Part shown: piece by piece, positions 2,294-23,469 of the stretch
How positions within the stretch are numbered: the stretch's first letter is position 1
Layout: each line of letters begins with the position of its first letter
IMG/VR virus record: IMGVR_UViG_3300030450_001937
Location: 1-43,944 of that record
Reading direction: 5' to 3' (one strand)
Origin: a virus
Length of the DNA stretch: 43,944 nucleotides
The notes under the pieces: generated by a model
Told to the model about the DNA's origin: nothing
Databases searched by the model: none
What the model saw: the letters and a program-made list of their open reading frames with translations, nothing else
Translations under genes and position numbers: made by a program

Positions 2294-4750
2294 ATGCCAT
2301 ACTTAGGAGTAGCACCTAATCCTAGAGAGAATAGGGAAGTAGATGATATATCTGGTAGTTTTAATGGAAGCACGACTGCTTTTACTTTGCAGTCAGGAGG
2401 ATCTAATGTTTCTCCTGGAAAAGATACTGCGATAATAGTTTCTGTTGGTGGTGTAGTACAGAATCCAGGAACAGATTATACAATTGCAGCCAGTACTATT
2501 ACATTTACTACAGCTCCTGCCAGTGGATTAACTTTCTTTGGAGTTGTTTTAGCACAGAGTATAGATATACAGACTCCAGCAGATGGGACAGTCACTCCAG
2601 CTAAGATAGTCAGTGGACAAGACTTTACATTTAATAGTGTTGTTGTAGGTAAAGGTGCAAACTCTGTCGCTGGTAATACAGTTCTTGGGGAAAGTGCTTT
2701 AGATGCTTCTGTAAGTGGTGGAAATAATACTGCTATTGGTAAAGATGCTCTTACAGCAAATACTTCTGGTGCAGATAACACTGCTTGTGGTTCTATTGCT
2801 TTAGATGCAAATACAACAGGATCTACCAACGATGCTTTTGGTCGTAATGCTTTAGGTAAAAATACAACAGGATCTAATAATGTTGCTTTAGGAAACAATT
2901 CTTTATCTAATAATTTAACAGCCAGTAATAATACTGCTGTAGGGAAAAGTGCTCTTACAGCAAACACAACTGGAACGCAGAACGTAGCAGTAGGTGGTTT
3001 AGCTTTAGATGCAAATACTACTGGAAACTATAATCAGGCTTTTGGTTATGGTGCTTTAACTTCAAACACGACAGCAAATTACAACTCAGCTTTTGGATAT
3101 TTTGCTCTACAAAACAACACAACTGGTACTACTAATACTGCTTTAGGTAGATCAGCATTATCTGGAAATACAACAGCAAGTAATAACACCGCAGTTGGAG
3201 AGCTTGCTTTATTCGCAAACACAACTGGAACGCAAAATACTGCAGTAGGTTCTGGAGCTTTAGATGCCAATACCACAGCAGATGAAAATACAGCAATGGG
3301 ATATATAGCTTTAGGAGCAAATACTACTGGAGCATTAAACACAGCCGTAGGAGCTTATTGTTTAGATGTCAATACAACTGGCGGTAGTAATGTAGCTTTA
3401 GGAGCTAATGCTTTAGGAGCAAACACAACAGCAAGTCATAACACAGGAGTTGGAACTAGAGCATTACAATCAAACACAACTGGAGAAAACAATGTAGGTG
3501 TTGGTGCTAATGCTTTAAAGACAAATACAGATGGCTTTCATAATACTGCTATTGGTTTTGATGCTTTAAAAGATCATAGTAGTGGAAACAACAATACTGC
3601 CGTTGGTAGTCAGGCTTTAGAAAATTCAACAACTGCAATACAAAATACTGCAATTGGATCTACTTCAATGCAGACTATAACAACAGCATCAAGAAATACT
3701 GCTATAGGTCATGGGTCAATGCAAGCTGCTACTGGGGCGGATAATAATGTTGCTGTTGGAGTTGAATCATTGGGATTGCTCACTACAGGAGATGATAATG
3801 TTGCAGTAGGTAAAGGAGCTTTATACAACAACACAACTGCTGATGATAATGTTGCAGTAGGAAAAGATGCTTTAAACTCTAATACTACTGGTAGTTTACA
3901 TGTAGCTGTAGGAAGAGATGCTTTAACATCAAACACAACTGGTAATTACAATACTGCTATAGGAAGAGAAACATTAGTACTTAATACAACTGGAAGTTCT
4001 AACGTAGCTATTGGTTTAAATGCGTTACAACAAAATACCACGGCTAATGAAAATGTAGCAATTGGAAGAAACTGTTTAGTTAATAACACAACTGGTGCAT
4101 TAAATACAGCTCTTGGAGCATTTGCTGGAGATTCAGTAACAACTGGAGGAAGTAATACCCTTATTGGCCATAACTGTGGACAAGCTATCACGACTGCTGG
4201 TGCTAATACTTTTGTTGGTTTAAATGCTGGACAATTAAATACAGGTTCTGACAATACATATATTGGCCAAAGGTGTGGCGAAAATATGACAACTGGAACT
4301 GGTAATGTCGCTATTGGAAAAGAAGCATCTCCATCAAGTAATACTTCAAGTAATTCAGTAACTTTAGGTGGAGGTGCTATTAGTGCCTTACGTTGTAATC
4401 AAACATCAATTAGTTCTTTATCTGATGAAAGAGACAAAACAGAAATTATTGATTTGCCTATAGGTTTAGATTTCATCAATAAAGTTAGACCTGTAAAATT
4501 TAAATGGGCATCGAGAGATGGTAAACAAGGTAAGGATGGTACTTATGAAGCTGGTTTTATAGCTCAAGAATTTCAATCAGTAGAGTCTTCTACTTCTGTT
4601 GATTATCTAAATTTAGTATTAGATGATAACCCTGATAAATTAGAAGCTGCACCAAATAAATTATTTCCTGTTTTAGTAAAAGCAGTACAAGAATTATCAG
4701 CAAAAAATACTGCACTAGAAACAAGAATTGCTGCATTAGAAGCAGCTTAA
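2294..4750 (+). CDS. Tail fibre with N-terminal attachment domain, NTAVG repeats and S74 chaperone
   Basis: 818 residues. The first ~110 form a beta-rich domain starting MPYLGVAPNP, with FNGSTTAFTL and GGVVQNPGTDYT. This type is common at the N-termini of marine phage fibres and probably attaches the fibre to the tail. A linker, VGKGANSVAGNTVLGESAL, is shared nearly residue for residue with the fibre at 19766. About 30 repeats of ~17 residues follow. The S74 chaperone starts at about residue 700 (SSLSDERDK near 710; GFIAQEF) and ends in a coiled coil. It lies downstream of the 29-bp repeat and of a relic of another fibre gene. Confidence 0.95.
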   Translation: MPYLGVAPNPRENREVDDISGSFNGSTTAFTLQSGGSNVSPGKDTAIIVSVGGVVQNPGTDYTIAASTITFTTAPASGLTFFGVVLAQSIDIQTPADGTVTPAKIVSGQDFTFNSVVVGKGANSVAGNTVLGESALDASVSGGNNTAIGKDALTANTSGADNTACGSIALDANTTGSTNDAFGRNALGKNTTGSNNVALGNNSLSNNLTASNNTAVGKSALTANTTGTQNVAVGGLALDANTTGNYNQAFGYGALTSNTTANYNSAFGYFALQNNTTGTTNTALGRSALSGNTTASNNTAVGELALFANTTGTQNTAVGSGALDANTTADENTAMGYIALGANTTGALNTAVGAYCLDVNTTGGSNVALGANALGANTTASHNTGVGTRALQSNTTGENNVGVGANALKTNTDGFHNTAIGFDALKDHSSGNNNTAVGSQALENSTTAIQNTAIGSTSMQTITTASRNTAIGHGSMQAATGADNNVAVGVESLGLLTTGDDNVAVGKGALYNNTTADDNVAVGKDALNSNTTGSLHVAVGRDALTSNTTGNYNTAIGRETLVLNTTGSSNVAIGLNALQQNTTANENVAIGRNCLVNNTTGALNTALGAFAGDSVTTGGSNTLIGHNCGQAITTAGANTFVGLNAGQLNTGSDNTYIGQRCGENMTTGTGNVAIGKEASPSSNTSSNSVTLGGGAISALRCNQTSISSLSDERDKTEIIDLPIGLDFINKVRPVKFKWASRDGKQGKDGTYEAGFIAQEFQSVESSTSVDYLNLVLDDNPDKLEAAPNKLFPVLVKAVQELSAKNTALETRIAALEAA

Positions 4751-19765: not shown

Positions 19766-22132
19766 ATGTCTCAGACTAAAGCTCAATTATTAAATCCATT
19801 AGGTGAACTTTCATCAAGTGATGTAACAGTAAACAGTATATTGATAGGAAAAGGTGTAAACTCTGTTGCTGGTAACACTGTTCTTGGAGAAAGTGCTTTA
19901 GATGCTTCTGTTAGCGGTGGAAATAATACTGCATTAGGTCATAAAACGCTTACGTCAAACACATCAGGTAATGCCTGTGTTGCTGTCGGTTATAGAGCAT
20001 TACTTAATAATACAACTGCTGCTAATAATGTTGCTGTTGGAAATGACAGTATGAAGGATAACACAACTGGAGCATCTAATACGGCAGTGGGATCTAATGC
20101 CTTAGTGGCAAACACAACTGCTGGTAACAATACTGCTGTTGGTAGAACTGCTTTAGGTTCTAATACAACAGGAGAATTTAATGTAGCTGTAGGTGCTTTA
20201 TCTTTAGATGCTAATACCACAGCCGATAATAATACTGCTGTCGGTACTGCTGCATTAGGAGCAAATACAACTGGTCCAGACAACGTAGCCGTAGGAGCTA
20301 ATGCCTTAGATGCTAATACTACTGGAAGAATGAATGTTGGTATTGGTAAAGATGCTTTAGGATCAAATACAGAAGGCGAGTTAAATGTAGGAATAGGAAG
20401 AGAGGCATTATTAAATAACACAACAGGTGACAGTAACGTAGGAATTGGAAGAAACGCTTTATCTAATAACACAACAGCTTCTAGTAATGTAGCTGTAGGT
20501 GATAGTGCTTTAAATGCAAACACAACTGGAGCAGCAAACGTAGCTGTTGGTACAAACACTTTAGATGCTAATACTACTGGTACAAATAACGTAGCACTTG
20601 GAAATAGTAGTTTAGGTGCAAACCAAACAGGTGCGAGAAATACTGCACTTGGAGATCAAGCACTAGCAAATAATACTACAAGTAATAACACAGCCATAGG
20701 AAGTACAGCAGCAAGAGATACTACTACTGGAGAAAGAAACATAGCAATAGGAGAAGCTGCATTTAGAGTTAATACTACAGGTAGTAACAACGTAGCAATA
20801 GGACAAGCAGCTTTAATAGCGAACACTACTGCTAGTAACAATACAGGGGTTGGTTATCAGGCTTTAGCTGCAAACACAACTGGAACAGAAAACACTGCTA
20901 TTGGAAAAGGTGCTGCTGCTACTGGTACAACAAATGGCCAGTGCACCGCAGTTGGATTTGAGGCTCTAACTTTAAATACTGGTGGAGCACAAACTGCTGT
21001 GGGTGCTTTAGCTCTAAAAAGTAATACGACTGGTTCAGGCTCTGTTGCAGTTGGTTATAAAGCACTGGAAGCACAAACAACTGGACACACTAACACAGCA
21101 ATAGGAAATCAGGCTTTAAGGCAAGCTACCACAGCACAACTTAATGTTGCCGTAGGAAGTGATTGTATGGATGCTGTTACATCTGCTGCTTTCTGTGCTG
21201 CTGTTGGTAGACGTGCTTTATATAGATTAACCACAGGTGGTAATAACACTGCTATGGGTCAAGGATGTGCTCAACACGTCACAACTGGACAATTTAACAC
21301 AGCTATGGGTGGTGATGCTTTACAACAATGTACCACAGCATCTTCAAACGTAGCTATTGGTAGGGTTGCTTTAGCAGCATGTACAACTGGTGCAGGGAAC
21401 GTAGCTGTAGGAAAGGATTCAGCAGTAAGTCTTACAACTGGAGCTAATAACGTAGTGATAGGTACAGATGCTATGCAAGCTGCAACTGCGGTAAATAAGT
21501 GTGTTGTTGTTGGTGAGGGAGCTATGTTCACCCATACTGGTACTGGAGATGAACATAATGTTTATGTTGGTTATCAAGCTGGTTATTTTGGAACTACTGG
21601 ATATAGCAATACTTTTGTAGGTGGACGTGCTGGGTTAAATATTACTACAGCTAATAATTCTACATTTATTGGAAGAAATGCAGGTGGTGGACATATGAGT
21701 GGTGGTTATAATATTTGTTTAGGTATAAACTCAGCACCATCTTCAGTCAGTGTAAGTAATCAATGTACTTTAGGTGATAGTAATATAAACAATTTACGAT
21801 GTAATGATACTTCAATTAGTTCTTTGTCAGATGAGAGAGATAAAACAGAAATTATTGATTTACCAATAGGATTAGACTTTATAAATGGCTTAAAACCTAG
21901 AAAGTTTAAATGGGCAACAAGAGATGGCAACATAAAAGATGGTAAATACAGAGCAGGTTTCATAGCACAGGAGCTTCAGACTTTAGAATCTTCAACTTCT
22001 GTTGATTATCTTGATTTAGTTTTAGATGACAACCCAGATAAATTAGAAGCTACAGAAGGTCATTTATTACCTGTGATTATAAAAGCAATACAAGAATTAT
22101 CTGCAGAAGTAAATGCTTTGAAGGCTGCATAA
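19766..22132 (+). CDS. Tail fibre with NTAVG repeats and S74 chaperone (third paralogue)
   Basis: 788 residues. The N-terminus is only ~25 residues (MSQTKAQLLNPLGELSS) before the same GKG-x-NSVAGNTVLGESALDASVSGG block seen in the fibre at 2294. It lacks the long attachment domain of that paralogue and may attach differently. About 33 repeats of ~17 residues follow. The S74 chaperone has SSLSDERDK near residue 688, GFIAQELQ and a C-terminal coiled coil. It is followed by the 92-aa fibre-associated protein. Confidence 0.95.
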   Translation: MSQTKAQLLNPLGELSSSDVTVNSILIGKGVNSVAGNTVLGESALDASVSGGNNTALGHKTLTSNTSGNACVAVGYRALLNNTTAANNVAVGNDSMKDNTTGASNTAVGSNALVANTTAGNNTAVGRTALGSNTTGEFNVAVGALSLDANTTADNNTAVGTAALGANTTGPDNVAVGANALDANTTGRMNVGIGKDALGSNTEGELNVGIGREALLNNTTGDSNVGIGRNALSNNTTASSNVAVGDSALNANTTGAANVAVGTNTLDANTTGTNNVALGNSSLGANQTGARNTALGDQALANNTTSNNTAIGSTAARDTTTGERNIAIGEAAFRVNTTGSNNVAIGQAALIANTTASNNTGVGYQALAANTTGTENTAIGKGAAATGTTNGQCTAVGFEALTLNTGGAQTAVGALALKSNTTGSGSVAVGYKALEAQTTGHTNTAIGNQALRQATTAQLNVAVGSDCMDAVTSAAFCAAVGRRALYRLTTGGNNTAMGQGCAQHVTTGQFNTAMGGDALQQCTTASSNVAIGRVALAACTTGAGNVAVGKDSAVSLTTGANNVVIGTDAMQAATAVNKCVVVGEGAMFTHTGTGDEHNVYVGYQAGYFGTTGYSNTFVGGRAGLNITTANNSTFIGRNAGGGHMSGGYNICLGINSAPSSVSVSNQCTLGDSNINNLRCNDTSISSLSDERDKTEIIDLPIGLDFINGLKPRKFKWATRDGNIKDGKYRAGFIAQELQTLESSTSVDYLDLVLDDNPDKLEATEGHLLPVIIKAIQELSAEVNALKAA

Positions 22133-22497: not shown

Positions 22498-22728
22498 ATG
22501 CAGATAGTAAATTTTTTTCTATCTAGACCTTCTGTATATACATTACCTGGTACTTGGGAGAAACAACCATTAATTAAACATGGTAATTATCCTGGACTTC
22601 CACCAGAGGGTCAAATAGTTGTTATCATCTTGGCATTACTCTTATTTATTACAGGTTATGGTCTGTATACAGCATTCGGACCACCTAATAAGAATCTAAC
22701 TGATCCTTGGGATGACCACGACGATTAA
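22498..22728 (+). CDS. psbN: Photosystem II protein PsbN homologue with N-terminal extension
   Basis: 76 residues. The C-terminal ~42 residues match PsbN: a hydrophobic helix (IVVIILALLLFITGYGLYTAFG) quoted by its ends IVVII and LYTAFG, then PPNKNLTDPWDDHDD. Host PsbN proteins end in the same way (YTAFGPPS-x-x-L-x-DP-[FW]-[DE]-[DE]-H-x-D). PsbN is a small thylakoid protein needed for assembly and repair of photosystem II. Host PsbN is only ~43-46 aa; here ~34 extra residues (MQIVNFFLSRPSVYTLPG, then NYPGLPPEG) precede the helix. Last gene of the + block, closed by a strong terminator. Confidence 0.9.
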   Translation: MQIVNFFLSRPSVYTLPGTWEKQPLIKHGNYPGLPPEGQIVVIILALLLFITGYGLYTAFGPPNKNLTDPWDDHDD

Positions 22729-22745
22729 AAAAATCATAAAATTTA

Positions 22746-22777
22746 TCACTATTCTTTCAGGAGTGGTGACTTTTTTT
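22746..22777 (+). terminator. Rho-independent terminator after psbN
   Basis: Stem TCACTATTC (22746-22754) with GAGTGGTGA (22761-22769), two G-U pairs, loop TTTCAG, then C and seven T. It ends rightward transcription before the convergent - strand Hli operon. Confidence 0.75.
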
Positions 22778-22792
22778 GAAATTTTTTCAATT

Positions 22793-22894
22793 TTATACAT
22801 CTAATAGACCATTCATTCCTGCGATTGTTCCTATAGCAATGAAGAAAATAAATTCAATTAATGGATAGTATGGGCTGTGAAGTATTCTTTTCAT
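22793..22894 (-). CDS. Micro membrane protein, 33 aa (last gene of Hli operon)
   Basis: Starts in an ATGA overlap with the previous gene. MKRILHSPYYPLIEF, then the hydrophobic stretch IFFIAIGTIAG and a short polar end. One TM helix. Size and form are like the small photosystem or cytochrome b6f subunits, but no specific subunit is matched. Confidence 0.55.
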   Translation of the reverse strand: MKRILHSPYYPLIEFIFFIAIGTIAGMNGLLDV

Positions 22895-22965
22895 GCGAGT
22901 ACCATCGACCCTATTCCAGTAATAAGGTAAGCTGCTATAAAAATAGTAAAAAGTAAATAATTCAT
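22891..22965 (-). CDS. Micro membrane protein, 24 aa
   Basis: ATG within a TGATG overlap, preceded by AAGGAGCC. The product is almost entirely one hydrophobic helix (MNYLLFTIFIAAYLITG, then IGSMVLA). It overlaps the next gene by ATGA. Its strong ribosome binding site and coupling argue that it is translated. Function unknown. Confidence 0.5.
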   Translation of the reverse strand: MNYLLFTIFIAAYLITGIGSMVLA

Positions 22966-23144
22966 CAGGCTCCTTGATAAACAGGGGTCATAACACCACC
23001 ACCTCCATCCTGATCATCATCATTATCATCATCATTGATGGCACGTAATGTTAGTTCTAAAAGAACAACAAAACCTATGGGGTAAAAACACCATAGGATT
23101 GCTTGAAAAGGTGTGATGTCATTCATTAATGACAGTTCAGGCAT
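22965..23144 (-). CDS. Small membrane protein with Asp-rich tail, 59 aa
   Basis: Starts in TAATG at the end of the hli gene. N-terminus MPELSLMNDITPFQA, TM helix (ILWCFYPIGFVVLLEL), then an unusual run of Asp with Gly (INDDDNDDDQDGGGG). Third gene of the Hli operon, which suggests a role in the thylakoid together with Hli proteins. No named family. Confidence 0.65.
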   Translation of the reverse strand: MPELSLMNDITPFQAILWCFYPIGFVVLLELTLRAINDDDNDDDQDGGGGVMTPVYQGA

Positions 23145-23278
23145 TAGAATATGCCAAAAAACATGTGTCCTGTAAGTAAATCAGATACTGCAGCTGCAAC
23201 AAGACCTACCATCGCTAGTCTTCCATTCCATTTTTCTGCAAGGATTTTCTGTTTTTCTAGGGCTTTTGATTTTGTCAT
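23144..23278 (-). CDS. hli: High-light-inducible protein (Hli), 44 aa
   Basis: From the ATG at 23276-23278, in a TAATG overlap with the other hli; the longer upstream frame is not used. Contains AEKWNGRLAMVGLVAAAVSDLLTG, the chlorophyll-binding E-x-x-NGR-x-AM-x-G-x-x-[AG] signature, here ending in GHMFFGIF. Hli proteins are one-helix relatives of light-harvesting proteins that bind chlorophyll and protect photosystem II. Common cyanophage auxiliary gene. Confidence 0.93.
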   Translation of the reverse strand: MTKSKALEKQKILAEKWNGRLAMVGLVAAAVSDLLTGHMFFGIF

Positions 23279-23469
23279 TAGAATATACCTGGAATGATTT
23301 GACCTGTGACTGCATAAGCACCAAATAGAGCAACAATGCCAAGCATTGCCCATCTACCATTAACTTTCTCGGCATCCTCTGGATAGCCTACATAATTAGG
23401 ATCAACTTGTGGTCTGGGTTCAATACTGTAAATGTTTTGACGACCACCACTTTCTGTAACTTGTGTCAT
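23278..23469 (-). CDS. hli: High-light-inducible protein (Hli), 63 aa
   Basis: N-terminal soluble part (MTQVTESGGRQNIYSIEP) and one TM helix with AEKVNGRWAMLGIVALFGAYAVTG and the end IIPGIF: the full E-x-x-NGR-x-AM-x-G motif. First gene of a five-gene leftward operon (Hli, Hli, and three small membrane proteins), all coupled by 1-4 nt overlaps. No clear Shine-Dalgarno. Two hli genes in tandem, with different lengths, suggest different partners. Confidence 0.95.
   Translation of the reverse strand: MTQVTESGGRQNIYSIEPRPQVDPNYVGYPEDAEKVNGRWAMLGIVALFGAYAVTGQIIPGIF

Follow-up and report, generated by a model that had tools for sequence, protein, structure and literature searches.

The window, by which we mean the whole stretch of DNA analysed (43,944 nucleotides, a 43.9-kb contig of a marine cyanobacterial virus), contains a genuine auxiliary-metabolic operon comprising two high-light-inducible proteins (Hlips) and three single-helix microproteins, here termed g3, g4 and g5. 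The set is best read as an hli-linked, largely host-derived cassette of thylakoid microproteins that would aid Hlip-dependent protection or repair of photosystem II (PSII), a functional assignment to which we give a probability of about 0.5. Viral takeover of host metabolism has a textbook example in the photosynthesis genes of cyanophages, and in the isolates checked the annotated set omits a conserved 24-aa gene and, mostly, g5.

Operon layout and coding capacity

The five-gene chain of the original prediction, hliA-hliB-g3-g4-g5, is real and runs on the minus strand from 23469 to 22793, with an overlap of 1-4 nt at each junction. The features of the locus are the following:

23278..23469, minus strand: hliA, a high-light-inducible (Hlip) protein of 63 aa (phrog_178, 2.1e-26; phrog_20629)
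23144..23278, minus strand: hliB, an Hlip of 44 aa (phrog_178, 1.2e-16; phrog_20629, 4.2e-14)
22965..23144, minus strand: g3, a one-helix protein of 59 aa with a polyacidic tail (phrog_7843, 1.2e-26)
22970..22975, minus strand: Shine-Dalgarno sequence of g4, AAGGAG (sequence)
22891..22965, minus strand: g4, a hydrophobic microprotein of 24 aa (alignment, pN/pS, HMM matches in 10 isolates)
22793..22894, minus strand: g5, a one-helix protein of 33 aa (phrog_17067, 8.6e-6; alignment; pN/pS)
22746..22769, plus strand: terminator-like hairpin between the operon and the convergent psbN (10-bp stem and T run)
22498..22728, plus strand: PsbN-like protein of 76 aa, convergent with the operon (Pfam PF02468, PsbN, 9.6e-18; NCBIfam NF009650, above cut-off; phrog_8051)

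The hliA/hliB and hliB/g3 junctions both read TAATG and the g3/g4 junction reads TGATG, each a 1-nt overlap, and g4 and g5 share the four nucleotides ATGA. The predicted sizes of g3, g4 and g5 stand, and hliB, as a correction, is 44 aa long counted from its own ATG; the PHROG matches of hliB were obtained with a query span that began one codon before this ATG. Alignment and PHROG families place both hliA and hliB among the Hlips, with the ExxNGRxAM motif and a single helix present in each. The Shine-Dalgarno sequence claimed for g4 lies 4 nt ahead of its ATG, within the last codons of g3. The hairpin could possibly terminate both strands, in which case it would serve the minus-strand operon as well.

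All three micro-genes are genuine protein-coding genes. Frame-breaking losses in relatives were looked for, and the ORFs are kept. The microproteins recur beside hli elsewhere, in 13 cyanophage genomes that bear a name and in about 50 IMG/VR contigs. Among the 51 g3-bearing loci of the viral contig scan, the great majority of those with enough flanking sequence carry a g4 of exactly 24 aa beside g3, and most carry a g5 of 30-38 aa. The exceptions in g4 are a length of 26 aa in L024 and P-TIM68, an ATGATG start in L008 and L009, and its absence from several g3 loci. Within groups of relatives, pN/pS is 0.23, 0.05, 0.40 and 0.25 for g4 and 0.39 (one pair), 0.04, 0.31 and 0.14 for g5. Substitutions in both genes are concentrated at third codon positions, with 36, 0 and 132 differences at positions 1, 2 and 3 of g4 in the tightest group.

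The g3 family (T4-GC437) has the pattern W..FYP followed by a D-run and GGG.M.PVYQG, and its AF2 model consists of a helix at residues 12-36 and a low-confidence acidic tail. Family members of g5 share the pattern E-F-x-F-F ... G..AG..G, in which E14, F15, F17, G22 and G29 are invariant and A25 and G26 nearly so; one helix, residues 10-32, is modelled by AF2, and phrog_17067 is matched by all 26 of the 26 members. Neither g3 nor g5 is a degenerate Hlip (hhalign probability against the Hlip profile, 0.3-0.8%). No Pfam family was found for g3 or g5 (all members) or g4 (single sequence), and no NCBIfam family for the three single sequences; a match of g3 to the Pfam family 'Adipogenin' (E 0.046) and matches to archaerhodopsin, NEDD4 and TOM5 in PDB profile searches were taken as chance.

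Many small cyanobacterial membrane proteins (L178-L182 and others) end, like g3, in a D-run, a Gly-run and M-QPV, a tail that may serve all of them as a common motif for targeting or binding.

Distribution in phages and Prochlorococcus

Matches to the g4 HMM are found in 10 isolates of the phage collection (MED4-213, P-HM1, P-HM2, P-SSM2, P-SSM3, P-SSM4, P-SSM7, P-RSM3, P-RSM6 and P-TIM68). A tblastn search of the same collection with g5 alone gave no match although the genes are present, the query being too short, and g5 was therefore searched by profile. The expectation that gene callers would miss such short genes is borne out for g4, annotated in none of the 10 isolates, and mostly for g5, annotated in three of the 12 named genomes that carry it (PHM1_204, PHM2_203 and PSSM2_279.1). 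It fails for g3, which is always annotated, as a hypothetical protein in every annotated isolate genome with the gene.

The T4-like cyanophage hli cassettes of P-SSM4, P-HM1, P-HM2, P-SSM2, P-SSM7 and MED4-213 have the same order, hli, hli, g3, (g4), g5, and the same families as the window (clusters T4-GC267/436/437/554/594), with g4 unannotated in all of them. Unlike these cassettes, the window belongs to a virus distantly related to S-EIV1 and has psbN adjacent and convergent, and it is without the T4-GC438, T4-GC285 and psbA that the T4-like cassettes have downstream. T4-GC438, which comes straight after g5 in T4-like cyanophages (L003:2376-2750 and homologues), is annotated as a 'carboxylesterase', probably wrongly; Pfam gives no match for it, and its product has the look of a small protein that is hydrophobic in an N-terminal segment. 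In another phage group (L037, L047-L053), g3 and g4 are separated by an extra Hlip-like ORF of 34-40 aa (HPYWRFAERWNGRLAMVG), and g5 is followed by one more ORF, hydrophobic and 30-35 aa long.

Homologues of g3 occur at 66 loci, nearly all in Prochlorococcus, with strong full-length matches in about 45 of 151 Cyanobiaceae genomes; g5 is found in 50 of the 151, and in many host genomes the two genes are about 160 nt apart. Weak g3 matches in larger, Synechococcus-type genomes were rejected as homologues, being mainly matches to the acidic tail of other small proteins, which end in D-run-GGG-M-QPV. Among 22 host g5 loci, 17 have an hli gene no more than 1.5 kb away, as do 15 of 20 host g3 loci, compared with 0 of 80 control 3-kb windows. 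The comparison is not a formal test, as the control windows were drawn from three genomes and the g3 and g5 locus sets overlap. Similar to the window, Prochlorococcus hli clusters (MIT 9302, L183; SAG loci, e.g. L074, L105 and L119) have hli adjoining g3 and g5 homologues; unlike in the window, g4 is not detected. In MIT 9302 the order is hli-g3-g5-hli, all on one strand, and the family matches are phrog_7843 (2.9e-17) for g3 and phrog_17067 (2.9e-10) for g5. In the SAG loci g5 precedes g3, with an unrelated ORF of 33-38 aa between them, and host g3 and g5 can also stand without an adjoining hli (e.g. L185 and L184).

Cyanophage auxiliary metabolic genes are recognised as virus-encoded genes with host homologues, and such homologues are found for g3, g5 and hli. 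For g4, the profile that scores phage copies at 1e-10 to 1e-15 has no match in the 151 Cyanobiaceae genomes. The hli-linked clusters of the Prochlorococcus host are the source of g3 and g5, or at least have these genes in common with the phages; g4 looks like a phage-side addition.

Parts of this picture are already known, namely the g3 host-phage pair, the hypothetical clusters T4-GC437/554/594 and phage PsbN. The MED4 gene PMED4_15491 was described as a small ORF that is transcribed and has the phage homologues PSSM4_181 and PSSM2_278 (Steglich 2008, PMC2518516); PSSM4_181 belongs to the g3 family, and PSSM2_278 is found by the g3 profile. In the passages found in the main text of that paper, PMED4_15491 is treated as a single ORF, and neither g4, g5 nor the operon appears. 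T4-GC163 was described as the possible PsbN of phage and T4-GC436 Hli as enriched in Prochlorococcus phages (Sullivan 2010, PMC3037559). What appears to be new is g4, the g5 family with its members in the host, and the module as such, no description of which was found in the main texts available to the search. The g5 protein is not the Yfr6 peptide, which is also 33 aa long (Steglich 2008; Axmann 2005). The Yfr6 ORF is of the Downstream-peptide (glutamine-II) class, and the identity was rejected because no glutamine-II/Downstream-peptide leader flanks host g5 in 11 loci, with the exception of a single glutamine-II hit in L152, which is distal to g5 by about 1.3 kb.

The carrier virus and the slot after the primase

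The virus encodes PolA and a Prim-Pol/D5 primase. The best full-length relative of the primase is that of S-EIV1 (34% over 98%), and PolA is 42% identical to its S-EIV1 counterpart, with roseophages slightly closer. By these two proteins the virus is distantly S-EIV1-like, not T4-like, and the module therefore exists outside T4-like phages. Elsewhere in the window, three large proteins (205-1920, 2294-4750 and 19766-22132) match the same virion structural or tail-spike families, and the one at 19766-22132 ends, by eye, in an apparent intramolecular-chaperone domain.

The contents of the slot after the primase vary among related contigs. Where the window has the hli, microprotein and psbN set, the sister contigs L061 and L062, from distant relatives of the virus, have psbA (L061:8752-9837 and L062:8724-9812; Photo_RC, 1.5e-86 and 1.6e-87). 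In L060 the slot holds hli-hli-g3-g4-g5 and a PsbN-like gene. In L058, L059 and L066, the contigs that carry L007-L009, it is occupied by hli-hli-g3-g4 and psbN; in these closest relatives of the window virus, g5 has been lost between g4 and the terminator. The g5 gene is thus not essential, since it is absent there and is undetected by HMM in P-RSM6.

The predicted convergence with psbN is found in the window but is confined to this virus clade, the psbN homologue of T4-like isolates lying elsewhere in their genomes. Homologues of the PsbN-like protein in T4-like cyanophages are 40-51% identical to it and have in common its approximately 36 extra N-terminal residues (SRPSVYTLPGTW...).

Proposed role and alternatives

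In the proposed mechanism, all five proteins would be translated in a coupled chain and made together in the thylakoid membrane of the infected cell. The microproteins may act as accessory helices of the Hlips, g5 by way of its conserved small-residue face G..AG..G and g3 by way of its W..FYP helix together with its acidic tail. They would stabilise or steer Hlips on PSII assembly or repair intermediates, and PSII would run on under light stress during infection. Protection or repair of PSII seems the most economical role because of the linkage to hli in phage and host, the presence of psbN and the psbA slot, although this neighbourhood evidence is circumstantial; the "thylakoid remodelling" of the original prediction is plausible on the same grounds. 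A role of this kind has precedent in Psb34, a small one-helix protein that controls the binding of Hlips to CP47-containing PSII intermediates (PMC9458560). The likeness to Psb34, and to further one-helix PSII factors that modulate Hlips, is a functional analogy only, with no sequence similarity found in PDB and Pfam searches. Neither g3 nor g5 matched any known PSII factor or Hlip in sequence; for g4 the searches covered a PDB profile, Pfam and NCBIfam with a single sequence, and PHROGs. In addition, phage infection in the light induces host hli genes (PMC5082946).

The acidic, probably disordered tail that follows the single helix of g3, together with the hli and psbA slot context, would also fit microproteins that shield new D1/PSII by inhibiting or titrating FtsH/Deg proteases, with the g3 tail facing the stroma. 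This is unlikely, as the host itself keeps g3 and g5. The original prediction likened one-helix proteins of 24-33 aa in size to small photosystem and cytochrome b6f subunits. The microproteins might be stoichiometric small subunits, or variants of them, that replace those of the host in PSII, PSI, NDH-1 or cytochrome b6f. Size, single-helix architecture and the photosynthesis gene context agree with such subunits, but the likeness does not extend beyond size and one helix: PDB searches with the g3, g4 and g5 profiles (E<=10) find no photosystem, NDH-1 or b6f chain, the microproteins have no Pfam or NCBIfam family as described above, and their host homologues are patchy (g5 in a third of the genomes searched), unlike core subunits. 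We regard this explanation as improbable. Type I toxins are similar in size to hydrophobic single-helix peptides of 24-33 aa, and g4 and g5 resemble them in this respect. Small membrane toxins, holin-like peptides or lysis-timing peptides are nevertheless very unlikely, given that the overlaps point to one mRNA with the Hlips, that conservation beside hli extends to the host chromosome and that no lysis genes adjoin in the loci seen. Finally, chance alone often produces ORFs as short as 24-33 codons, but chance ORFs or an RNA element conserved for RNA function are already contradicted by the strong third-codon-position bias with pN/pS of 0.04-0.40, by the conserved lengths and start/stop overlaps and by the lack of any Rfam family in the window.

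A bolder reading, less probable than PSII protection or repair itself, is that at least two unrelated marine cyanophage lineages share an overlooked three-microprotein complex, with the 24-aa subunit specific to phage, and that this would join Hlips in a complex dedicated to protecting or repairing PSII. If this were true, the Hlips of Prochlorococcus would have a partner that has escaped notice, the g3-g5 pair of the host. If the microproteins are Hlip or PSII partners, a small set of proteins would suffice to test how phages sustain photosynthesis and what the binding targets of the numerous Prochlorococcus Hlips are. Among the annotated conserved proteins of cyanobacteria, PetN, with 29 aa, is the shortest that Baumgartner et al. 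name (PMC5126843); g4, with 24 aa at an almost invariant length, would undercut it in size.
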